Below, in pieces: positions 5,432 through 52,594 of a stretch of DNA of 64,000 nucleotides. Within the stretch, counting starts at the first letter, position 1, and each line of letters opens with the position of its first letter. This DNA comes from Beijerinckiaceae bacterium (GTDB taxonomy: Bacteria > Pseudomonadota > Alphaproteobacteria > Rhizobiales > Beijerinckiaceae): contig CANGBC010000001.1 of assembly GCA_947452005.1 (NCBI GenBank), forward strand, positions 186,001-250,000. The letters are read 5' to 3'. The position numbers and the translations under genes were made by a program. The notes beneath the pieces were generated by a model that worked only from the letters and a program-made list of their open reading frames with translations, did no database searches and was not told the origin of the DNA.

Positions 5432-7864
5432 TTAGCCGCGCAGGGTTGCGCCTGTCTTTTTTGTCACTTCCGCGACGATCTTCTGCATGACCGCTTCGAT
5501 TTCCGCGTCGGTCAGCGTCTTTTCGCGCGGCTGCAGTGTGACGCTGATGGCAACTGATTTCTTGCCCTCTGGAATGCCCGTGCCTTGATAGACGTCGAAC
5601 ACATTGGCGTCGGTGATGAGTGCGCGATCAGCGGCGAGCGCTGCTTTCAGAATGTCCCCGGCCTGCACGGAGGCCTCGACGATGAAGGCAAAATCACGCT
5701 CAAGCGGCATGAGGTCCGACAAGTCGAGTTTTGGCTTTACCTTGGTGGGTTTTGCCTTTGGTGCTGGAATCGCATCGAGAGTGATTTCGAATCCGCACAA
5801 CGGTCCGTTCACATCCAATGCTTCCAAGACGCGCGGATGAAATTCGCCAAACCAGCCGATCACACCCTTGGGTCCGAATTGCAGCGTGCCTGAACGCCCC
5901 GGATGCAGGAAAGAGGGACCACCGGCAACCACTTGCAAGCCACCGGTCGCCACACCCAGCGTGGCGAGCAGCGCCATCACATCGGTCTTGGCATCGAACA
6001 CATCAACCGGGCGGGCGGCGCCCGACCAATGTCGACCAGCGCCTGTCGCCCGCGCTGTCCCGCGCCGAACTGCAGAGGCAGCCATCTTTTGATCTTCGGG
6101 CTTGTCGCCTTTGAAAATCTGGCCAACTTCAAACAAGGCAAGATCCGCAATGCCACGATCTGCATTGCGCTGCGCGGCTGCCAGCAAACCCGGCAACAAG
6201 CTTGGGCGCATATCGGAGAGATCGGCCGCAATCGGATTGGCAAGCGCCAGTTCTTTCGCGCCGCCGCCAAACAATTCCGCACGTTCCTTGGAGATGAAGG
6301 ACCAAGTGACGGCTTCAACCAGACCCTGTGCCGCCAGCGCGCGGCGCGCCAGACGCGTGCGCTTTTGCAGCAATGTCAGGATGGGGGCTGGAATGTCCGC
6401 GCTTTCACGCCGCAAGGGCGTCGAAATGATGGCATCAAGGCCCGCAATGCGCACGATTTCTTCGACAAGATCAGACTTGCCTTCGACATCAGCACGCCAG
6501 CTTGGCACTTTCACAAAGACGCGGTTGGCATTGGTGGCCTGACGCAAAACATCAAAGCCAAGCTTTTCCAGAATGCCCGCCATGTGCGAGGAATCGAGGT
6601 CAAGACCAGCGAGGCGTTGCACTTCGGTCCAAGGGAAATCAATGGTGCGCGCCGGCACGTTGGGTGATCCTGCAACAAGCAGTTCGGAGGCTTCGCCACC
6701 GCAGATCTCTTGTACGAGATGGGTAGCAAGTTCCGCACCCGGCACACAGAAAGCCGGGTCAACGCCACGCTCGAAACGATAGCGCGCATCCGACACAATG
6801 CCCAGTGCACGACCAGCGCGCGCGATCGTGAGCGGATCCCAGAGCGCGGATTCGATCAGCACGTCTGTTGTGTGCTCATCGCATCCAGATGCTTCACCAC
6901 CCATAATGCCAGCGATGGATTCAACACCCTTGTCATCGGCAATGGTGATGATGGAGGGATCGAGCTTGTAGGTTTTGCCATCGAGCGCCACGATCTCTTC
7001 GCCAGATTTGGCGCGGCGCACGACGAGAGCGCCTGCGACTTTTTTCGCGTCAAACACATGCAGCGGGCGGCCGCGATCGAAAGTCAGATAATTGGTGATG
7101 TCGACCAGCGCATTGATCGGGCGCAGACCAATCGAGGTCAGACGCTTCTGCAACCAAGCAGGTGATGGCCCGTTCTTCACACCGCGCACGAGGCGCAATG
7201 CAAAGGCTGGCGCGAGATGCTCATCGCCCGCTGCAAAATCGAGCTTCACCGAAACAGGGCACGCGAATGCGCCAGCAACGGGTTTGATCGGATGATCTTT
7301 CAGACGTCCAAGACCAGCAGCAGCCAGATCGCGCGCAATGCCATGCACGCCGGTTGCATCCGCACGGTTGGGCGTCAGATTGATTTCAATGACCGGATCG
7401 CCAAGGCCAGCAAAATCGACGTAGCGTTGACCAGCTGTCGCGGTCTCGGCCAATTCGATGATGCCGTCGTGATCTTCTGACAACTCCAGTTCCGCGGCCG
7501 AGCAGAGCATGCCCAAAGATTCCACGCCGCGGATCACGCCTTTGGCGATGGTGAATTTCTTGGCCGGAATATAAGTGCCGGGCGAAGCAAAAACCGTCTT
7601 CAAACCCGTGCGCGCATTGGGTGCGCCGCAGACGACCTGGACAGGCGCGCCAGCGCCAATATCGACCATGCAAACCCGCAGGCGATCCGCATCGGGATGG
7701 CGCTGTGCATCAAGCACATGACCGACAACAAAATTTTTCAGCGTGTCGGCAGGATCAACAACATGCTCAACTTCGAGACCGATGCGCGTCAGCGTTTCGA
7801 CGATCTCGTTGAGTGATGCTTCGGTTTCAAGGTGATCCTTGAGCCAGGAGAGCGTGAATTTCAT
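5432..7864 (-). CDS. pheT: Phenylalanyl-tRNA synthetase beta subunit
   Basis: The 810-residue protein has the complete domain order of bacterial PheT. It starts with [16 protein letters not shown], then an N-terminal tRNA-binding (EMAP-like) domain (about 40-150), B3/B4 editing and B5 domains, and a central core like a degenerate synthetase domain. A C-terminal FDX-ACB anticodon-binding domain contains [14 protein letters not shown] and [15 protein letters not shown]. With PheS it forms the alpha2-beta2 enzyme that charges tRNA-Phe; the beta subunit edits mischarged Tyr-tRNA. It starts 14 bp after pheS. Confidence 0.97.
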
Positions 7865-42235: not shown

Positions 42236-42283
42236 TGGCGCACCCGGCACGATTCGAACGTGCGACCTTTGCCTTCGGAGGGC
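42236..42283 (-). repeat. Distal attachment repeat (truncated tRNA-Arg 3' half)
   Basis: Identical over 48 bp to 52518-52565. It carries the CCA end, T-arm and part of the anticodon arm of tRNA-Arg on the minus strand and stops at the anticodon. It is a non-functional tRNA fragment left by site-specific integration. Confidence 0.93.
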
Positions 42284-42340
42284 GGAATATGCATGAATAA
42301 TAAATTTGATTTCAATTACTTATCCGACACATAAAATATA

Positions 42341-42357: not shown

Positions 42358-42486
42358 AAATCAGAGAATTGAAAAAACGTCTTTTTTCATAATAAAATCA
42401 GTTACTTACAATCAATTTTGTTTACAGAGCGTAGTAGCAATTTAAATGGCACTTTTGTTGTAATTCAGCAATTAGGGAACAACAAA

Positions 42487-42924
42487 ATGTCCAAACTCAA
42501 ATCACTCTCCTTTTGCGCTCTCCCTGCCATTTCAAAGGACCCAATTACGACCAAACGCTACCGCCTCATTGAGCGCTTGGAGCAGCAGAGGAAACTCGCA
42601 ACCGACCCCTCATTTACAATCCGAATGACGAAAACAGTCAAAAACGCAGATGGGACTAAAACCTCCACAGAACGCGAAAAGCGCCTCACCCAATGGTGGA
42701 AGACTGACGAAAAGGGGGCAGTAGTTCTGTCAGTCCGTGTTGGGTTGAAAACCCTGGAATTTGAAAAGGGCAAGGCAGGAATATCTGTCGGTCCAATGGA
42801 TCGGTTGGATAGTGCCCTGTCGACGCTGATTGAAGCAGTCAGAGCAGGGGAACTTGATGGCGCTATATTGGCAGATGTGAAGTCCAAACAATTGAAGCAG
42901 GGAACAACTGCCAAAGCGACTTAA
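42487..42924 (+). CDS. DUF6641-like protein
   Basis: A 145-residue basic protein starting MSKLKSLSFCALPAI. It resembles DUF6641 proteins of phages and plasmids: an N-terminal MSKL.. segment, a YRLIERLEQQRKLA helix, a WW-containing centre (TQWWKTDEKG), then LEFEKGKAGISVG and EAVRAGELDGAI. The function is unknown; such proteins recur on mobile elements, suggesting a maintenance or host-take-over role. ATG 42487 has an AGGGA site upstream; in-frame codons upstream to 42418 do not look coding. It is the first gene inside the left attachment site. Confidence 0.7.
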   Translation: MSKLKSLSFCALPAISKDPITTKRYRLIERLEQQRKLATDPSFTIRMTKTVKNADGTKTSTEREKRLTQWWKTDEKGAVVLSVRVGLKTLEFEKGKAGISVGPMDRLDSALSTLIEAVRAGELDGAILADVKSKQLKQGTTAKAT

Positions 42925-43341: not shown

Positions 43342-43782
43342 ATGAGAAATGAATTTCTGAATTGGACCGATGGTCGTGATTATAATTTATTTATAACAAT
43401 CACATTGCGACAAAGCATAACATCCGACAACGGACACAAAGTTTATATCGATGATGAAAATATTAGAAAAACGGCATGGATACTTCGTGACCGTATTTTG
43501 AAATCTTTAAAGTGTGAATCTAAGAAAAAAGTATATCTGGCATTTAAAGAATGCGGTTCGCTTTTCAATAAGCGGCATCATCTTCATATAGTGACTTATA
43601 AACCGGATACTTTGAGCATTGAAGAATATGAAAATAAATTCAGATCCAAAGCGGCAAAATTGGATTGGGTCTATAATGAAATTGATATTCGACCAATCCG
43701 ATCAGGTGAGGCGCGGCAGGTATTATCTTATAGTTTGAAAGAGGGAATAAAGGCGTTCATCCCAGAAGCGTCTTATTTCTGA
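43342..43782 (+). CDS. Small HUH-type replication protein (Rep-like)
   Basis: The 146-residue protein shows the three motifs of HUH endonucleases. Motif 1 is the beta strand NLFITITLRQ (about 15-24). Motif 2 is His-Leu-His (residues 80-82) in KRHHLHIVTY. Motif 3 is a Tyr-x2-Lys (Y130, K133) in VLSYSLKEG. It resembles the REP_ORF2-G2P type of rolling-circle initiators from small phages and plasmids. The catalytic domain is complete and no helicase domain is attached. An AGG site precedes ATG 43342. It would nick the element's origin; this is inference. Confidence 0.65.
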   Translation: MRNEFLNWTDGRDYNLFITITLRQSITSDNGHKVYIDDENIRKTAWILRDRILKSLKCESKKKVYLAFKECGSLFNKRHHLHIVTYKPDTLSIEEYENKFRSKAAKLDWVYNEIDIRPIRSGEARQVLSYSLKEGIKAFIPEASYF

Positions 43783-44034: not shown

Positions 44035-44364
44035 TTAGCGGCGTAAATTCCGCATTGCTCGTGCCAAATCATCAGGGTCACGCCTACCTGCTGTGAGCAT
44101 TAGGGGTGTTGGTATCTTTGCCCACCGTTTATTTTTTCGACCCTCATAATATTTATGTATCTGCTCAAGGAGTTTCTCACCCTTCAAGTTTGGATATTTG
44201 AGATACACATCCCTGTAGACCGTCAGCATTTCTCGAACGGCTAGTAATTTGTCACCGTTGCCCTCATCGTGAATCGAAAAGTTCGATCCTTCTTGACGGA
44301 CAAGGTGCTTATAGAATTTGTGCCCTCTCTGAGATTTTCTGACGGTCTGGATTTTAAGGTCCAA
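44035..44364 (-). CDS. Hypothetical protein of the island
   Basis: A 109-residue basic protein with no family that I recognise. It has KSQRGHKFYKHLVRQEG near the N-terminus, a long middle helix and RRDPDDLARAMRNLRR at the C-terminus. The first possible start is TTG 44364; the ribosome site is weak, and the next Met would be at about residue 46. It is on the minus strand, opposite to the Rep-like gene and the TAGT unit, with gaps of about 250 bp on both sides that probably hold promoters. Confidence 0.55.
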   Translation of the reverse strand: MDLKIQTVRKSQRGHKFYKHLVRQEGSNFSIHDEGNGDKLLAVREMLTVYRDVYLKYPNLKGEKLLEQIHKYYEGRKNKRWAKIPTPLMLTAGRRDPDDLARAMRNLRR

Positions 44365-44597: not shown

Positions 44598-44616
44598 GGG
44601 GTCTCGGGAGGGCGGA

Positions 44617-45447
44617 ATGAGCATCAAAAATAATATTCATTTTGAGATTCCAAAGGGAAAAGATCTGTCCCTTACCCCAACACTCGTGAACCAACTAAAG
44701 AAACTGCAAAAAGAAGGTCAGGAAAATGTTTGGAGGACCTTTCTCTATGCCGCAGGTTTAAGGGCGGCGTATCAAAAAAACCAAAAGTGGGATTCCTCGT
44801 TCACCGCTTGGTATAAAGATAACAATCTTCAGATGTGTTTTGGTTCGATGTCACAATTCTCAAAATGTGCATCGGCAGGTGAAGTGGTTCATCGATTTGC
44901 TACGCTTTTCCCTGATAGGGAAGATCTAGTCTACGCCCTTCCGACATCTATGAATGCGCTTTATGAGATTAGTTTTCTAATTAAAGGGCAATCCGCCAAT
45001 ACCATTGCAAAATGGATTTATGAGGGCGGAGAGAATTTTGAGGATGATAGCGCTGATGAACTTGGAATTATTAGTCCAGTCGTCACGGCTAAAGAGATAA
45101 CTGAGTTTGCAAAGAAAATTGCAAGTGGGTCTAAACGCAAACAGATCAAAGAAGATCCAGTACGCAAGAAAGAATTCAGTGTTGCTATCGCAACAATTTA
45201 CGCGAGCAAGTCTCTCTTCAGTTTTGATAAAAGGGGACAACATGCCGGCAAAGTCGAACTGCGCGATATCAAGGAACAAATCCGAATGCTCAAAAGACTA
45301 AACCGTAGTCAGTTTGATGTTCGCGATAAACTTACAGATATCGAAGTCAAATATGAATCCAAGAAGGAAAAAGCGGATCCCGTAAAGCGTAAATACAAAA
45401 AGAAAACTTCAGTAAGTAGACCTGCCACAAGGATGGGCGGGAAATGA
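44617..45447 (+). CDS. Hypothetical DNA-associated protein upstream of TAGT
   Basis: A 276-residue, largely helical and basic protein. No family is recognised with certainty. The region WRTFLYAAGLRAAYQKNQKW ... WYKDNNLQMCFGSMSQF, followed by alternating helices, recalls plasmid regulators in which a helix-turn-helix-like segment follows a long helix. The last 60 residues are a Lys/Arg-rich tail that could bind nucleic acid. GGGAGG precedes ATG 44617. Its stop overlaps the next start (ATGA), so the two proteins are probably made in step. Confidence 0.6.
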   Translation: MSIKNNIHFEIPKGKDLSLTPTLVNQLKKLQKEGQENVWRTFLYAAGLRAAYQKNQKWDSSFTAWYKDNNLQMCFGSMSQFSKCASAGEVVHRFATLFPDREDLVYALPTSMNALYEISFLIKGQSANTIAKWIYEGGENFEDDSADELGIISPVVTAKEITEFAKKIASGSKRKQIKEDPVRKKEFSVAIATIYASKSLFSFDKRGQHAGKVELRDIKEQIRMLKRLNRSQFDVRDKLTDIEVKYESKKEKADPVKRKYKKKTSVSRPATRMGGK

Positions 45448-47048
45448 AAAAGCGACAATCAAGTCACGTCGTGAAGGAAAGTCATTCTTATGATGACCTG
45501 CTTTCTTCATCGCCTAAAACGAAAACGCTGATAAACGAATTGAGATCTGGTGCATTAAAGGATGAGATCAAGACTAATATTTCGAAAAGATCGGGTTTGA
45601 CGCAAAAAACAATTAAAGACGTTAAAGTGAAACTATCTAATCAGACCATTGCTGATACTTTTGCTAAACTTATCAAACAAGATATATCCGCTAAAACGAA
45701 GCGGATTGTCTTTGAAGGAAAATACGACGAATTAAAAGGTAAGGCGGTTATTGTTAATCCGCTCAAAAAACGTGGTCCCTATTCCTTTACGGACCTAACC
45801 GATGCTGAGAAGGCAAAAAATCAAGAAAAAAAATTAAAAAATCGACGCAAAATTCAGAACAAGGTTCGTTGGAATACCGATGATTTTTATGAACGTCATT
45901 GGATTGATATGCCTCCATTTGAGAATGAAGAAAAATTACCTTTTGCCGAATTTATTGTTTCATTCCCGAACGTGGATTCACACAAAGCGTGGCTGAAATT
46001 GACCGGTGAAACGGGAAGTAGTTTCTGGTTCAGTGAGGCAGAAGAAAATGAAACTCGGGATGTAGAAAAGCAGATCTGGATTGGACGCAAACCAACAAAC
46101 AGACCGCAATATCCCGTTTATATTATTAGTAAGGGCAGGGCAAAGTATGGACCTTTGACCGCAAAGGTACTTCAGCGACTTGGAATCCCATTTTATCTGA
46201 TGGTTGAACCACACGAATACAATAAATATCGAACGCTCTGTGATTGGGCGAAGGATGTTTTGGTTATAGGCGACAGTAACCATGGTATGGGACCAGGGCG
46301 CGCTAGAAATGCTTGTTGGGATCACGCAAAGCACGTTCTGAAATCAAAGCGCCACTGGGTTCTAGATGACAACATTGCCGATTTCTATCGACTTCATCAA
46401 AACAAGAGAATTCGTGTAGGTGACGGAACAATATTTCGTGCAGCAGAGAATTTCGTAGACCGCTATGAGAACGTGGCGGTTGCAGGGTTTGCCTACACAT
46501 TCTTCCACGTGGCAACGAGTAAACAATATCCATTCAAATTAAATACGAGAATTTATTCATGCTTATTAATTGACAATGATTGCCCCTATAGATGGAGGGG
46601 TCGATATAACGAGGATACAATTCTGTCATTGGATGTGTTGAAAGACGTCAATAAGAATAAAACACATGGTGATTTAAATGAAAAAAACAAAGACGGGACT
46701 TATAAGAATTCTCGGCGTGATCGATTAACTACCGTTGAGTTTGTTTCTTTTCTACAAGCAAAATTGAACACACAGGTTCAGAAGGGCGGGAATACAGCAG
46801 CGTTTTATGGAAAAGAAGGGACCGCCCCTAAATCAATGATGTTGGCAGAGACGCATCCAGATGTAGCGACAAACAAAGAAATGTTTAGTCGGGCGCATCA
46901 CAAAGCGAATTACGAAGTTTTTCGAAATAATTGGCTGATCAGAACTGAAAAGCGCAAGGCAACACTCAAATCGACAGAGTGGAAAGGATTTGGTCGAACC
47001 AATCCTTATGGCATGAAGTTGTCAAACTCTCTGCAACTTAAGGATTGA
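45444..47048 (+). CDS. TET-associated glycosyltransferase (TAGT) fusion protein
   Basis: A 534-residue protein in three parts. Residues 1-145 are basic and variable. About 152-215 match the short domain that often follows ParB-like modules in phages (WIDMPPFE, then FIVSFPNVD and SFWFSEAE). About 220-500 form a TAGT-like GT-A glycosyltransferase: VYIISKGRAKYGPLTAKVL, KRHWVLDDNIADFYRL (DD at 308-309, the likely metal/sugar site), FVDRYENVAVAGF, NTRIYSC and RWRGRYNEDT (384-392). In phages TAGTs glycosylate 5-hydroxymethylcytosine made by TET/JBP enzymes. None is present here, so the acceptor is unknown. Confidence 0.78.
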   Translation: MKKRQSSHVVKESHSYDDLLSSSPKTKTLINELRSGALKDEIKTNISKRSGLTQKTIKDVKVKLSNQTIADTFAKLIKQDISAKTKRIVFEGKYDELKGKAVIVNPLKKRGPYSFTDLTDAEKAKNQEKKLKNRRKIQNKVRWNTDDFYERHWIDMPPFENEEKLPFAEFIVSFPNVDSHKAWLKLTGETGSSFWFSEAEENETRDVEKQIWIGRKPTNRPQYPVYIISKGRAKYGPLTAKVLQRLGIPFYLMVEPHEYNKYRTLCDWAKDVLVIGDSNHGMGPGRARNACWDHAKHVLKSKRHWVLDDNIADFYRLHQNKRIRVGDGTIFRAAENFVDRYENVAVAGFAYTFFHVATSKQYPFKLNTRIYSCLLIDNDCPYRWRGRYNEDTILSLDVLKDVNKNKTHGDLNEKNKDGTYKNSRRDRLTTVEFVSFLQAKLNTQVQKGGNTAAFYGKEGTAPKSMMLAETHPDVATNKEMFSRAHHKANYEVFRNNWLIRTEKRKATLKSTEWKGFGRTNPYGMKLSNSLQLKD

Positions 47049-47060
47049 TTCTAGAAGGGA

Positions 47061-48587
47061 CTAGTTCTGTTCAATTATTTGTGCCTCAATGACACCAAAG
47101 GTTACTGGAAGTCTTGAGCGCCCACGAATGGTCGGCGCTTGATAGGTTGCTTTCTTCACAACAGGCATAGCGTTCACTGTGAAATCATCAGGAATGTCGG
47201 GACTTCCAATAACTAGCGCGCCGCGGCGAGTGACGTCATTTGGTCGGATCCAAGGTGACATTTTCACGCTTGCCTGATCGAAGACGTGAACCTTGTAGGG
47301 TAAGTCAAAGGCAATGGAACCTGCAGTGTGCATTGCGCGCTGACGTTGAGTTTGAACAATATAAACAATACGACCTGATCCGTTTATGCGCCAGTATTCT
47401 TGGGCGTCTCTAAGAATTTTCCGATGATCAAGATTTGAGTACTGAGGTTTCTCGTTTTGTATAGGCACAATGATGGTGCTTATATATCCGAATATGAGCA
47501 ACGATGAAAATACACCTGTAGCAACCAGCGCGCGATGAATTTTAACATTCTCAATTCGGGACAAAATATTAGCAAAATAAATAACCAAGGGTATGATTAA
47601 TGGCGTGATCCAAAGTGGGCGCGGACGAATCCCTAAAAACGGGGAAGCAACTAATAAGACAATTGGTCCAAATGTTGCCGCAAACAAAAACCAATCTCTT
47701 GGACTTGCTGTGTCAGGATGAATTGATTCAATAAGCGCTTTTGAGAACGAACGGAAACCAACGCATAAAACAAAGGGAACTGACGTGAATAAAAACAGAA
47801 TAGTTGAATTCAGGAGCATATTAAATGTGAAACCAAAGACCTCACGTGGCGTTAAATAAACATGATTTATGGCGTGATTAAACGTCGAACTGCCTTTGAC
47901 TAAAACATCATATCCATGTGGCGCGATGATTACTATTGCAGTTAAAGCAGCGATCCATGGACCTGCGCCAAATATTTGCTGACGCCATTTCGGAATTGAA
48001 AAAAAGACTACGCCTAGAGCGGCAACAAGATGAAATATGGAATATTTCGCCCAAAGACCAAGTCCGACACTGACTCCAAATAACAACCAAGAGAATATCT
48101 TGTTTGTGTTGAAAGCATTCCATGCGGTTATGATGACTAATGCCCAAAATGGCATCACGCCGATATTATGATTCAGTTGAACAGGTATGTAGGTCGTGAA
48201 TGGTGAAGCAAGTCCCGCGCATAGTGCGATCAATGCGGGGACCGCTCCAAAAATCGAGAGCAACCAACGTGCGATCAAAAAAATAGATCCGGCAGCCAAT
48301 AATTGAGAAATTAGGTAGAGCGCGCTGTATCGAATAGGTCCCGTGTACCAAGCAAGTGCGATTAGCCACTCCGAAAATGGAGGGTGCTTGGGATATGACA
48401 ACTGCCATTCTGGACCACCTGTCATGCCTTCCGCGGCATCAAGGCGGAGCGAACCTTCAAGCATGCTCGGCAGCACAACCCATATAAGGATATGGGCGGC
48501 AGGAATAAGGTAGAGCAGTTTGCTGATCAAAGATTTAGTTTTTAGGTCCACGATTACCTGCCGCCCATTTAGGTCACCATGCCCCAC
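47061..48587 (-). CDS. GT39-like integral-membrane glycosyltransferase
   Basis: A 508-residue protein with roughly ten or more hydrophobic helices in its first 360 residues and a soluble C-terminus. The first loop carries Asp/Glu (LRLDAAEGMTGG) and the following YPKHPPFSEWL, as in ArnT/PMT-type GT-C enzymes that use polyprenyl-phosphate sugars on the periplasmic side. It probably glycosylates lipid A or a surface protein; the acceptor is unknown. The frame starts at GTG 48587; GTG 48551, with a better-spaced CAGG, could be the real start. It converges with the TAGT gene. Confidence 0.78.
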   Translation of the reverse strand: MGHGDLNGRQVIVDLKTKSLISKLLYLIPAAHILIWVVLPSMLEGSLRLDAAEGMTGGPEWQLSYPKHPPFSEWLIALAWYTGPIRYSALYLISQLLAAGSIFLIARWLLSIFGAVPALIALCAGLASPFTTYIPVQLNHNIGVMPFWALVIITAWNAFNTNKIFSWLLFGVSVGLGLWAKYSIFHLVAALGVVFFSIPKWRQQIFGAGPWIAALTAIVIIAPHGYDVLVKGSSTFNHAINHVYLTPREVFGFTFNMLLNSTILFLFTSVPFVLCVGFRSFSKALIESIHPDTASPRDWFLFAATFGPIVLLVASPFLGIRPRPLWITPLIIPLVIYFANILSRIENVKIHRALVATGVFSSLLIFGYISTIIVPIQNEKPQYSNLDHRKILRDAQEYWRINGSGRIVYIVQTQRQRAMHTAGSIAFDLPYKVHVFDQASVKMSPWIRPNDVTRRGALVIGSPDIPDDFTVNAMPVVKKATYQAPTIRGRSRLPVTFGVIEAQIIEQN

Positions 48588-48656: not shown

Positions 48657-49247
48657 TCACACTAACTCCACAATCTTCCTCTGCGCCTCCGCACTGCCCT
48701 CAATATATCGTTGGGTAGTGGTCAGGTTAGAGTGACCTGCGAGGATCTGAATATCCCTGAGTGATCCCCCAACAGTCGATATCTTCCGTGCTGCATTGGT
48801 GATGAAGGTTCGTCGCCCTGAGTGACTTGAGCACCCCTGAAATCCAAGGGTGCAGTACCAACGACCAAATTGGTTCACCACCGCCTGTGCAGACGTTCTG
48901 TCTGACCTCTCAGTGGTTATGAGGTAGGCGGATGGGCGGATGCCGTCCCCCCCTTCATTCAGCAGGTCGGTCAACGCCCCCCTGAGTTCGGCATTTAGGG
49001 GGATGATGCGCCCTGAGCGTCCCTTTGAAGCACGGTCCTGTAGGTGGATTGCGGTCCCAATCCGACTGTCAGAATCTGTCACCATTCCCCACGTCAGACA
49101 GGCGATCTCTTTCGCCCTTAACCCTGCCCTGACCGATAGCAATACTATTGTTCGATTTCGAATGGGGTTTCTGGACTTGCCTATATAATTGAGCAGTGCA
49201 TCAATCTGACCCTTAGAGAGGGTCTTCGCTTGTTTTCCTAATGCCAT
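48657..49247 (-). CDS. Tyrosine recombinase, catalytic domain only
   Basis: The 196-residue protein (start ATG 49247, with GGAGA upstream) is a tyrosine recombinase catalytic domain. All core residues are present: Arg44 (AGLRAKE), His142 and Arg145 (HSGRR), His172 (GHS) and the nucleophile Tyr181 in TTTQRYI. The N-terminal core-binding SAM-like domain of XerC/D and phage integrases is missing, so it must bind DNA differently or rely on a partner. The element's main integrase is the gene at 51145. Resolution or inversion within the element is one possible role. Confidence 0.82.
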   Translation of the reverse strand: MALGKQAKTLSKGQIDALLNYIGKSRNPIRNRTIVLLSVRAGLRAKEIACLTWGMVTDSDSRIGTAIHLQDRASKGRSGRIIPLNAELRGALTDLLNEGGDGIRPSAYLITTERSDRTSAQAVVNQFGRWYCTLGFQGCSSHSGRRTFITNAARKISTVGGSLRDIQILAGHSNLTTTQRYIEGSAEAQRKIVELV

Positions 49248-49495
49248 TGGTTGTCTCCAGTCTGATGATGAAAAATCAGTCTGGAAACTAATTATAACCA
49301 ATCTAACTTGGCTGAAAACAACAGATCTAAAAAAATGGAATGACTACAAACGGTTAGATTCACTGATGATAAAATGACAATTAGATCATCACTGAACATA
49401 CATAACACCGCCTTGATTTATTTAATTCGGCAGCCAGAAATTGAGAAAATAACTCAGCGTCCTTAGTGGTTTTGGATCATATTAGAGGTTTGTAT

Positions 49496-51082
49496 ATGCA
49501 GTATAAGGCACAATACAACTGGGCATTGATTTTAGCGCTTTGCTCAATTTTCATTTTTAGCGAAAATGTAAAATCCCAATCGCTAGCTGAAAAATGTCAG
49601 TCCGATGGTGGTTATGCAGCAATCGAAAGTTGCACTAATGCAATAAAACAGAATCCAAGAAATGAAGATTTGTATTTGTATCGCGGGAACGCATATTTGA
49701 AGCGCGGTGAAAACGATGTAGCGATAACAGATTACTCGCGAGCAATTTCCTTAAATACTAATTACGTTAATGCTTATTTGAATAGAGGCATTGCATGGAG
49801 CAACCAAGGAAATCAGGATCGAGCAATCATCGATTTCGATCAAGTAATCAAATTAAGTGCAACAAATGCAGACGCATACTTTAATCGCGGTAATGCTTGG
49901 TATAAAAAAGGTGATAAAGACCGCGCTATTATTGATTATAATAAAGCACTACTCATAAACCCAAATAATTCAACTTTTTTATATAATCGTGGTCTAACTT
50001 TGGGTGATAAAGGTGATTTAGATAAAGCGATAGCGGACTATAGTTTAGCAATAAAAATTGAGCCAAACAAAGCAAACGCGATTTATAATCGCGCTACCCA
50101 CTATGAAAAAAAGGGACAAATTAAAGATGCGCTTGATGATTTTGAGCGCTATTTAAAACTGTATCCAAAAGACGAGGCAGCAATCTCGGCAGTAAAACGA
50201 TTGGGAGAAAAACTTACATTTTCAGAAGTTTATATAACCCCCTTTATTCGGGTGGTAAGAGGTTATTTCAGCTCATTAGGCGAGTACTTTTTTCATGACA
50301 TTTTTCTTGGTATCGCTTTACTAATTATATTTATGATTAGTTATTGGCTGTTCAAAAAACCAAATGAACGAAAGCAAGAATTTTTTGAAAATGTACCACC
50401 AAAACCAACTACGAATTCAGCTGAATTCTTGAATACGCCGGTCTCTGATGAGGCAGGAAGCAATAATATTGAAATTGAAAGCATAACAAATCATGCCTTC
50501 AATATTAAAAATGAAATTAAAGAAACTGATACCGCACAAGAGAGCTCAAAATCGTTCGAGGCACTCCACGGCGAATCTCAAGGCATCCGGGCCTCAATTG
50601 CAGGTATAGAAAATCAACAAAGCGAAGTTAAAAAAGAGACATCCCATTGGATTTTATGGACTGGCGGAATTGCTGCTGCAATTGGGTCAGCAATTTTTCT
50701 TATCCCGAATTCCATATCCTGTGACGGCACTCAGGTGAAAGAACAGTTGATGCAACTTATAACTCGCAAAGATATGGGATATTTTTCACATTTGAGACCT
50801 ATTGCAATACTCTGGAGATATGACGTGATTTCATACGCCGAATTTAATGCTGCGAATCAAGGAAAACCTCTTCCTACGAACATAAGTTTCAATGAAGTAA
50901 GAACGACTTATAAAAACGATGACATAAAAATGGTGCAATGTGCTGCTAAAATTACAGTAGCTATTTCGCGGGGTTCAGCGTGGCAGGATTTCGAATACCA
51001 AGTACAAAGTTCGTCTAGTGGAATTGTAATTCATTTTAAAGTTTATCCTGAGAATCAGCTGCCATATTTTATCAGACCTTAG
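49496..51082 (+). CDS. TPR protein with two membrane segments
   Basis: The 528-residue protein has an N-terminal hydrophobic segment that may be a signal peptide (about 8-25). About five tetratricopeptide repeats follow (about 45-225; e.g. NAYLNRGIAWSNQGNQDRAI and AYFNRGNAWYKKGDKDRAI). Next come a transmembrane helix (about 262-282), a Ser/Glu-rich linker, a second hydrophobic segment (about 385-403) and a soluble C-terminal domain without recognised family. TPRs bind peptides. AGAGG lies seven bases before ATG 49496, favouring it over an in-frame start at 49466. No partner is obvious. Confidence 0.75.
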   Translation: MQYKAQYNWALILALCSIFIFSENVKSQSLAEKCQSDGGYAAIESCTNAIKQNPRNEDLYLYRGNAYLKRGENDVAITDYSRAISLNTNYVNAYLNRGIAWSNQGNQDRAIIDFDQVIKLSATNADAYFNRGNAWYKKGDKDRAIIDYNKALLINPNNSTFLYNRGLTLGDKGDLDKAIADYSLAIKIEPNKANAIYNRATHYEKKGQIKDALDDFERYLKLYPKDEAAISAVKRLGEKLTFSEVYITPFIRVVRGYFSSLGEYFFHDIFLGIALLIIFMISYWLFKKPNERKQEFFENVPPKPTTNSAEFLNTPVSDEAGSNNIEIESITNHAFNIKNEIKETDTAQESSKSFEALHGESQGIRASIAGIENQQSEVKKETSHWILWTGGIAAAIGSAIFLIPNSISCDGTQVKEQLMQLITRKDMGYFSHLRPIAILWRYDVISYAEFNAANQGKPLPTNISFNEVRTTYKNDDIKMVQCAAKITVAISRGSAWQDFEYQVQSSSSGIVIHFKVYPENQLPYFIRP

Positions 51083-51144: not shown

Positions 51145-52362
51145 CTAATCGAATGGATAATCTTTATCCTTCGGTTTAGTTTCTTTGTTCCGTCGTGCCT
51201 TCGTAATTTGTGCCGCAAGTTCTGATGACACAGTCTGTCCGTAGAACTTCTCGAGCATTTCAACTGACGTACCCATCTGTTTTGCCAACAAGAATGGCGA
51301 CAATCCATTTGATAAGCGCATAGTCGCGTAGAAATGTCTGAGCGAATAAATCGTTCTTGTTCCGCCATTGCGCTCTAATGGAATCTCACAGAATTTCAGC
51401 AGTGAGATGAAAGAATTTTTCATCGTCTGTATTTGTTTTCCATCTTTGTGACAGAATACGACTTGATCAGTTGGGGGTGACTTACCCAATTCTAGTTTAC
51501 GCAAATCATAAATTCTTTTGAGATATTCATCAGCACCTGACTGAAATACGACTTCACGCATTCCAGTTTTACCAGTTACTTCTCCGATTAATCTTTTTCC
51601 GTCTTCACTCGGAATTGTTCTCAAGTCGCCCCAACGCAGACCACGCAGTTCTCCAATCCGTAGTCCTGTGTTGGCAAGTGTTAGTGCGTATTGCTGCAGC
51701 ATGAACCGTTGGCGCCAAGTCGCTTTCGATTCGCCTTCTGCAACCCATAGTGGCGCCTTTTTATAGATGACACGCCATTCATTGAGTGTGAATGTTGGTC
51801 TGCGTTCCGAATTTGCTTTTGGGGGCACAGTGTCAGGCATTACCTGAATGTAGCCACGGGAAATCGCAAATTTGAAAACAGGGAGGATACTTGTGCGCTC
51901 CCGTCTCAGTGTTCCATTCGATGGTTGTTTGCGGTTGTAGTTTGTTTTCCGCCACGCCCAATAATCAGAGAATTCGACAGGACCAATCGTGTCTATGCGT
52001 TTAGGTCCAAAAAATACCAGGGCATAATTCGCAGCACGGTCGATTGTGCCCTCCCATGAACCGCCACGTCGTGTGTGCCCCATGGTTCTGACGAATTTCT
52101 TCCATTCTTCGAAAACTTGCTTGAATGTTTTGGAGGTGACGGTCCCACCTGCCTTCACGTGCAGATAAGTATCCTCATACAGATTGAGAGCGAACCGCTC
52201 TGCTTCCTTGAAGTCTTCAGTTTTGGCACTGACGACTTTGTAACCTGCGGCATTTGGGACCCTGATTCGGACCTGCCACTTCGGATTTTTGAGCGTTGAG
52301 CGCTTGTAGAGAATGACTCTGCCGTCGCCTCTAAGATCATGTTGATCTGAGTAACCTGACAT
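51145..52362 (-). CDS. int: Phage-type tyrosine integrase
   Basis: A 405-residue integrase with an N-terminal arm-binding region (about 1-70, with WQVRIRVPN), a core-binding domain (about 78-178) and a catalytic domain (about 185-385). Catalytic residues: Arg235 (NTGLRIGELR), Arg342 and His343 in YSLRHFYAT, and the nucleophile Tyr374 in EKFYG. The normal second His is Thr365 in the MGTSVEM variant found in many alphaproteobacterial integrases. It lies 155 bp from the tRNA-Arg 3' end, facing away from it, which is the usual place for the integrase that made this insertion. Confidence 0.92.
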   Translation of the reverse strand: MSGYSDQHDLRGDGRVILYKRSTLKNPKWQVRIRVPNAAGYKVVSAKTEDFKEAERFALNLYEDTYLHVKAGGTVTSKTFKQVFEEWKKFVRTMGHTRRGGSWEGTIDRAANYALVFFGPKRIDTIGPVEFSDYWAWRKTNYNRKQPSNGTLRRERTSILPVFKFAISRGYIQVMPDTVPPKANSERRPTFTLNEWRVIYKKAPLWVAEGESKATWRQRFMLQQYALTLANTGLRIGELRGLRWGDLRTIPSEDGKRLIGEVTGKTGMREVVFQSGADEYLKRIYDLRKLELGKSPPTDQVVFCHKDGKQIQTMKNSFISLLKFCEIPLERNGGTRTIYSLRHFYATMRLSNGLSPFLLAKQMGTSVEMLEKFYGQTVSSELAAQITKARRNKETKPKDKDYPFD

Positions 52363-52517: not shown

Positions 52518-52565
52518 TGGCGCACCCGGCACGATTCGAACGTGCGACCTTTGCCTTCGGAGGGC
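52518..52565 (-). repeat. Proximal attachment repeat inside tRNA-Arg
   Basis: The 48 bp that are identical to 42236-42283, running from the encoded CCA to the anticodon loop of the intact tRNA. Confidence 0.93.
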
Positions 52566-52594
52566 AACGCTCTATCCAGCTGAGCTACGGGTGC
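52518..52594 (-). tRNA. tRNA-Arg (anticodon CCG)
   Basis: A complete cloverleaf on the minus strand. It has acceptor GCACCCG/CGGGTGC, D-arm with AGCTCAGCTGGATAGAGC, anticodon stem TTGCC/GGCAA with loop CTCCGAA (anticodon CCG), T-loop GTTCGAATC and discriminator G. The CCA is encoded at 52520-52518. It reads CGG codons. Its 3' half doubles as the attachment site of the island. Confidence 0.97.

Follow-up and report, generated by a model that had tools for sequence, protein, structure and literature searches.

TET-associated glycosyltransferases (TAGTs) take their name from a TET/JBP oxygenase partner. PMC13216743 reports that the TAGT of phages T2 and T6 puts a second glucose on alpha-glucosylated 5-hydroxymethylcytosine (hmC), and that solitary TAGTs, which occur without an alpha- or beta-glucosyltransferase (alpha-GT, beta-GT), are present in 288 of 753 phage genomes; it treats these solitary enzymes as an unsolved matter in the modification of phage DNA. 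Their existence in phages is, then, already published. We analysed a TAGT gene of a Beijerinckiaceae bacterium, located at 45444..47048 in a 64,000-nucleotide stretch of contig CANGBC010000001.1 (assembly GCA_947452005.1, positions 186,001 to 250,000; 'the window' below), where it follows a partner gene, p276, on a tRNA-Arg-associated island. A preliminary description of this DNA held that phage TAGTs act on hmC made by TET/JBP enzymes and that this gene, with neither such an enzyme nor a DNA methyltransferase on the island, may belong to a module at odds with the known phage pathway. The premise of TET/JBP-made hmC is too narrow in view of the T2/T6 enzyme and of the solitary TAGTs. The missing TET is not odd here either: solitary phage TAGTs are published, and no TET was seen in 63 genomes or records, in a search that had no positive control.

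The window protein shares with the T2/T6 TAGT the Pfam family (as assigned in the literature), the PHROG name (phrog_842) and the GT-A class. The T6 gene adjoins gp42 and the phage has an alpha-GT (the latter according to PMC13216743), whereas the island carries neither a gp42-like nor an alpha-GT gene and adds an N-terminal peptide, an MPxF domain and p276. As far as our searches show, a TAGT of the T4-phage branch with a phage N-terminal peptide on a non-prophage island is new; the literature search turned up no published TAGT of an island or satellite, although one may have been described without our meeting it.

The TAGT gene and the island that carries it

The TAGT gene is an open reading frame (ORF) with an ATG start that overlaps the upstream 276-amino-acid (aa) ORF by 4 bases (ATGA), in agreement with the two-gene unit described earlier. 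The features of this unit are as follows.

44617..45447, plus strand: 276-aa partner (p276), an ORF with the ATGA overlap with TAGT
45444..47048, plus strand: TAGT glycosyltransferase, 534 aa (Pfam, PHROGs, alignments, model)
45468..45503, plus strand: N-terminal peptide VVKESHSYDDLL, residues 9-20, which fits the pattern E[ST]xxY[DE][NSD] of T4-like-phage relatives
45891..46109, plus strand: MPxF domain, residues about 150-222 (alignment with relatives)
46110..46649, plus strand: PF20691 TAGT catalytic domain, residues 223-402 (Pfam)

The Pfam match to PF20691 (1.4e-31, 110.5 bits against a curated cut-off of 27.5) and the motifs named in the preliminary description, which are real and largely conserved in relatives, bear out the identification as TAGT; against PHROGs the protein matched phrog_842 (beta-glucosyl-HMC-alpha-glucosyltransferase) with 1.1e-37. 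It retains 61 of the 62 columns that are invariant in 29 other sequences (alignment A3) and 68 of the 73 invariant in 12 others (alignment A1), with changes at residues 300, 336, 429, 434 and 488. The DDN (308-310) and NEDT (389-392) motifs, which we take to be catalytic, are retained; a 25-residue insert (401-425) is absent from 13 aligned relatives. An AlphaFold model built from A3 had a mean pLDDT (predicted local distance difference test) of 78 and a pTM (predicted template modelling score) of 0.80, and GT-A glycosyltransferase chains topped both structure comparisons. The nearest solved structures belong mostly to protein and polysaccharide glycosyltransferases; a shared fold says nothing of the acceptor. 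Judged by sequence and model, the protein is a GT-A enzyme of the TAGT family that retains the set of motifs and has a predicted activity.

The gene almost certainly lies on a mobile island. A tRNA-Arg(CCG) gene at 52518-52594 on the minus strand is the integration site: its last 48 bases (52518-52565) recur exactly at 42236-42283, which gives an island of 10,282 bp from repeat to repeat, and an integrase gene (51145-52362) starts beside the tRNA. The G+C content is 0.414 within the island and 0.588 in the remaining window. By these sequence features, the element is a complete small tRNA-Arg-specific integrative island. We compared its nine main ORFs with Pfam, PADLOC 2.0 and PHROGs. No virion or packaging gene (capsid, terminase) was found among them by Pfam or PHROGs, by which the element does not qualify as a prophage, and these two databases revealed no recognised phage-satellite hallmark or helper-interference gene either.

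Relatives of the TAGT and of its accessory parts

In tblastn searches 22 phage records, 12 of them from Aeromonas phages, matched the window TAGT (35-44% identity); no relative was found in plasmids by tblastn or in genome contigs by a single-protein scan. A profile scan of those stretches that contained either of two short patterns revealed TAGT in 33 bacterial-genome loci and in at least 593 viral stretches, and 80 viral loci were kept. Within the order, 297 genomes were searched, and the gene occurs in none but that of the window.

A tree was built for 111 of 122 sequences (short and identical rows were dropped; hits of 250 bits or less had been removed earlier). The window TAGT belongs to a 56-member clade (support 0.88); its companions there come from IMG/VR contigs and from three bacterial loci (L030, L032 and L037), and its sister is L037 (support 0.83). 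A T4-core gene (homologue of uvsW, gp46, gp47 or gp55) is present on the stretch in 26 of the 56 clade members compared with 1 of the 55 sequences outside. The contrast concerns this branch and not all T4-like phages, since the queries were taken from L002, a clade member, since only the fetched stretches were examined, and since three phages of the Straboviridae (Aeh1, Ah1 and phiAS5) are placed elsewhere in the tree and have no T4-core gene in their stretches. None of the 33 bacterial loci carries one of the four genes in its fetched stretch. The tree, the N-terminal peptide and the gene neighbours of relatives support the view that the window TAGT would derive from a T4-like-phage branch.

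The fused TAGTs of the T4-like IMG/VR contigs L002, L063 and L064 have the same order of ESxxY peptide, MPxF domain and TAGT, and their trimmed catalytic domains share 58-60% identity with that of the window protein. They differ in their surroundings: phage genes of gp46 and gp55 type lie close to the TAGT of L002, and the fused IMG/VR TAGTs lack p276. In L002, the closest viral contig, genes that by eye look to be of sugar-nucleotide type (GDP-mannose dehydratase-like, cupin) lie between gp46 and TAGT (5599-7577). The TAGTs of the Aeromonas phages Aeh1, Ah1 and phiAS5 have the MPxF domain in common with the window protein and are 37-38% identical to it. These phages carry one plain thymidylate synthase, no gp42-like gene being found in them, and we group their TAGTs provisionally with the solitary ones; they reside in genomes of >220 kb, in contrast to a 10-kb bacterial island. 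Vibrio phage Kuja (L013, 5581-8269) has two tandem overlapping TAGT genes, which share the NEDTI variant with the window.

The DMPPF-type block noted earlier in front of the TAGT is real: the W.DMPPF block of the window corresponds in the alignment to a W.[GD]MP.[FYH] domain located ahead of TAGT in many relatives. In many viral contigs this MPxF domain is a separate ORF of ~80-140 residues directly upstream of TAGT, and in some bacterial loci MPxF and ParB_N share one ORF (ParB_N above the Pfam cut-off in L048, below it in L031 and L038). In L038 (2270-4291) the ParB_N-like part, MPxF and TAGT make up a single ORF, the first part of which looks non-coding by eye. The pattern E[ST]xxY[DE][NSD], which takes the form ESHSYDD in the window, was looked for in the N-terminal 40 residues: 8 of 18 fused MPxF-TAGT proteins have it there, as do 32 of 60 small MPxF ORFs, against 1 of 2204 other ORFs. 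These counts are descriptive, since the pattern was drawn up after the sequences had been seen, near-identical contigs were left uncollapsed and a few of the small ORFs are spurious. According to PMC13216743, the T4 alpha-GT binds the sliding clamp gp45; by analogy, one could guess that the N-terminal peptide might bind a replication protein.

For p276 a relative was found in 1 of 137 fetched loci, L030 from a Gammaproteobacteria metagenome-assembled genome (MAG), where it lies directly upstream of TAGT (27% identity over 278 aa, 5e-24). None was found in viral contigs, phages or plasmids, nor in 296 other genomes of the order and 397 others from the phylum (two draws that share genomes). The AlphaFold model of p276 was poor (pLDDT 43), and a two-row profile of it, compared by hhalign, showed no likeness to the upstream proteins of L032 and L037. 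By eye p276 had suggested a DUF3102 or ParB-associated protein; this was dropped, as Pfam gave nothing above cut-off and hhalign, with the same profile, no likeness to a DUF3102 protein.

Other bacterial loci are of several kinds. Relatives of terminase or portal proteins (six queries from four of these loci) were found in 12 of the 33, and these look like prophages; many of the other 21 are on short contigs. The loci of Erwinia (L031) and of a Bartonella MAG (L035) share with the island an MPxF and TAGT gene pair, but beside terminase and portal genes. In Rhodovulum euryhalinum (L034, 8304-9029) a PAPS-reductase-domain gene is located two ORFs upstream of TAGT; a link to sulphur-type DNA modification is a mere thought.

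A second locus with a tRNA-Arg setting is that of the Alphaproteobacteria MAG HKST-UBA120 (G324). A TAGT and an MPxF-like protein (L032) are situated ~2 kb past a tRNA remnant, which scores 24.2 bits (below Rfam's 29) and shares an identical 62-bp stretch with the intact tRNA-Arg(ACG) of the same MAG. The integrase at that intact tRNA-Arg is 36.9% identical to the window integrase over 393 residues (1.7e-81), and beside it an AAA/TOPRIM-type protein is encoded (L149, 2-1828; AriA 1e-23, Old 8e-13, TOPRIM below the Pfam cut-off). We infer that the TAGT end and the ATPase end form one island. It differs from the window island in that the MPxF-like block is on an upstream 285-aa ORF, in the lack of p276 and in the AriA/OLD-like ATPase at the other end.

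Base-preparing enzymes and the acceptor

The nine ORFs of the complete element contain, by Pfam, no TET/JBP, DNA methyltransferase or thymidylate-synthase-like/hydroxymethylase gene, which upholds the earlier observation for the first two. One earlier suggestion had been that the base is modified elsewhere in the genome. The window's genome (estimated to be 58% complete) gave no match to PF00145 (cytosine-5 methyltransferase) or PF12851 (TET/JBP); its one ordinary thymidylate synthase has phrog_160 as best match. PF00145 matched in 1 of 13 genomes or records, not the window's. PF12851 matched in none of these 13, and then in none of 50 more (25 of the 80 viral and 25 of the 33 bacterial loci); all PF12851 searches, including that of the window's genome, were made without a positive control, and the absence of TET is not proven since the control searches gave no match either.

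The thymidylate synthase (TS) family, PF00303, could be searched with a working control: it detected the td-type pieces and gp42 in both T4 and T6, where the gp42 sites are annotated as dCMP hydroxymethylase. Among 11 phage records with a TAGT relative, one TS-like gene was found in eight and none in two (both titled partial genomes), and a second only in PTm1, where it is annotated as thymidylate synthase and pyrimidine hydroxymethylase; a gp42-like second gene is thus missing in 10 of the 11. For Aeh1 a further match (W10:22089-22277, 18.6 bits, below cut-off) was dropped, as it lies inside gene 47 on the opposite strand. No PF00303 match was found in 25 long viral contigs, which are fragments. 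All eight phage TS-like proteins or pieces tested (Ah1 not among them) had phrog_160, thymidylate synthase, as best match. The Asn at the pyrimidine-recognition site, which presumably tells dUMP from dCMP enzymes, is kept in the TS-like proteins read out (nine and POP12). In phages Kuja, 65 and avDM6 the TS-like enzyme is divergent and could be a dUMP hydroxymethylase, with 5-hydroxymethyluracil as a possible acceptor there.

With no TET seen in the relatives searched, in the absence of a positive control, and a gp42-like gene in one of 11 records, the missing TET is not the anomaly of this locus; the bacterial island and the partner gene are. For the same lack of gp42-like genes in the other records, and of any base-preparing enzyme on the island, the case for DNA as acceptor comes from distant relatives.

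Other island genes and the role of the module

The remaining features of the island are listed below.

42236..42283, no strand: distal attachment repeat, 48-bp exact copy of the tRNA-Arg 3' end (repeat search)
42418..42924, plus strand: 168-aa DUF6641-like protein, TTG start (Pfam 25.1 bits, below cut-off 27; phrog_31551, 2.6e-14)
43342..43782, plus strand: 146-aa small replication-initiator-like protein (REP_ORF2-G2P 4.8e-5, 24.0 bits, cut-off 27.8; HLH and Tyr motifs by eye)
44035..44364, minus strand: 109-aa protein, no family match, TTG start (ORF, Pfam)
47061..48587, minus strand: PMT_2-family membrane glycosyltransferase (Pfam)
48657..49301, minus strand: short 214-aa tyrosine recombinase (Pfam, PHROGs)
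49466..51082, plus strand: 538-aa TPR-repeat protein (Pfam)
51145..52362, minus strand: 405-aa tyrosine integrase adjoining the tRNA (Pfam, PHROGs)
52518..52594, minus strand: tRNA-Arg(CCG), with the proximal attachment repeat 52518-52565 (tRNA and repeat search)

The Rep-like protein had no relative in viral contigs, phages or plasmids, and the PMT_2 protein none in phages. The PMT_2 gene is convergent with TAGT and could change surface sugars independently of it; the 214-aa recombinase is possibly a remnant of another insertion. A 36-nt direct repeat (42277-42312 and 44607-44642) is identical at 29 of 36 positions, compared with 24-26 in 12 Markov controls; the bases just inside the distal attachment repeat look like the region where p276 starts, which gives the impression of a surplus copy of that start stranded at the edge of the element.

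The TAGT would have been captured by the island from the T4-like-phage branch of the family. As a GT-A glycosyltransferase it would, by fold and motifs, use a nucleotide sugar as donor and glycosylate an acceptor, most likely a DNA base in view of the T6 TAGT and of the settings of relatives, beside ParB-type domains or T4 replication genes; its targeting would probably depend on p276 together with the MPxF domain and the N-terminal peptide. In a shared cell the sugar could be put on the DNA of a T4-like phage that infects it or on copies of the element made during that infection. We consider transfer of the sugar to DNA moderately probable, and give a phage-derived DNA-glycosylating module that serves in phage/element conflict slightly less than an even chance. 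A role in defence or self-protection is possible, and the second island appears to carry an OLD/AriA-like ATPase. A more far-reaching proposal is tentative and rather unlikely: the bacterial island would have turned a TAGT of T4-phage origin into a weapon or shield, which has a partner of its own and a phage-type N-terminal peptide, sugars an unmodified or phage-made DNA base during infection, independent of a TET or dCMP hydroxymethylase on the element, and is one cargo type of a tRNA-Arg island family. Several observations weigh against the module in phage/element conflict, apart from the lack of base-preparing enzymes on the island and of a gp42-like gene in 10 of the 11 phage records. PADLOC 2.0 gave no convincing defence family among the nine ORFs: TAGT and six others had no match, and the matches of p276 (RT_II-A, 0.0014, 15 bits) and of the TPR protein (PrimPol, 0.011, 12 bits) were weak. 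p276 has a single known relative, and the TAGTs of the window and of L030 are not sisters (the nearest node of L030 has support 0.44). The two ends of the HKST-UBA120 island are on different contigs, and the MPxF ORF of L041 had no ParB_N match in Pfam.

If the island were a phage satellite or mobilisable element, TAGT and p276 might glycosylate its own DNA while T4-like phage machinery replicates or packages it. The phage-type peptide, the small replication-initiator-like gene (below the Pfam cut-off) and the complete tRNA-integrated element speak for such self-protection; we consider it unlikely, with no capsid, terminase or recognised helper-interference gene in the nine ORFs and no phage-linked copy of p276 in the viral contigs and phages searched. 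It is likewise improbable that the acceptor is some cell component other than DNA, such as a protein (p276 itself or one of the phage, perhaps), to which the lack of an hmC source on the island, the phage records without a gp42-like gene and the protein and polysaccharide enzymes among the closest folds would point; against this, the T2/T6 TAGT modifies DNA (PMC13216743), relatives have ParB_N and replication-gene contexts, and the fold itself reveals no acceptor.

The TAGT may also be leftover phage cargo with no present function. Its great rarity in the order, the 25-residue insert and the five altered residues of 73 would fit, but the frame is open, the 61 of 62 invariant residues are kept, and the gene is coupled through ATGA to p276, a relative of which precedes TAGT in L030; we consider leftover cargo quite unlikely. 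Least credible is the classical route, by which host 5-methylcytosine would be oxidised by a TET encoded elsewhere in the genome and then glycosylated: genes may be unseen in a genome of this completeness, yet the available part matched neither PF00145 nor PF12851, and the 50 further records had no TET, with the limits of the PF12851 searches given above. We regard this route as very improbable.

Since the two-gene form is compact and comes without a phage genome of 200 kb, a laboratory strain would suffice to test what TAGTs use as substrate. To our knowledge, DNA glycosylation has so far been known as a phage shield; if the island's TAGT does act on the DNA of infecting phages, bacteria too would be using glycosylation in the arms race with phages.
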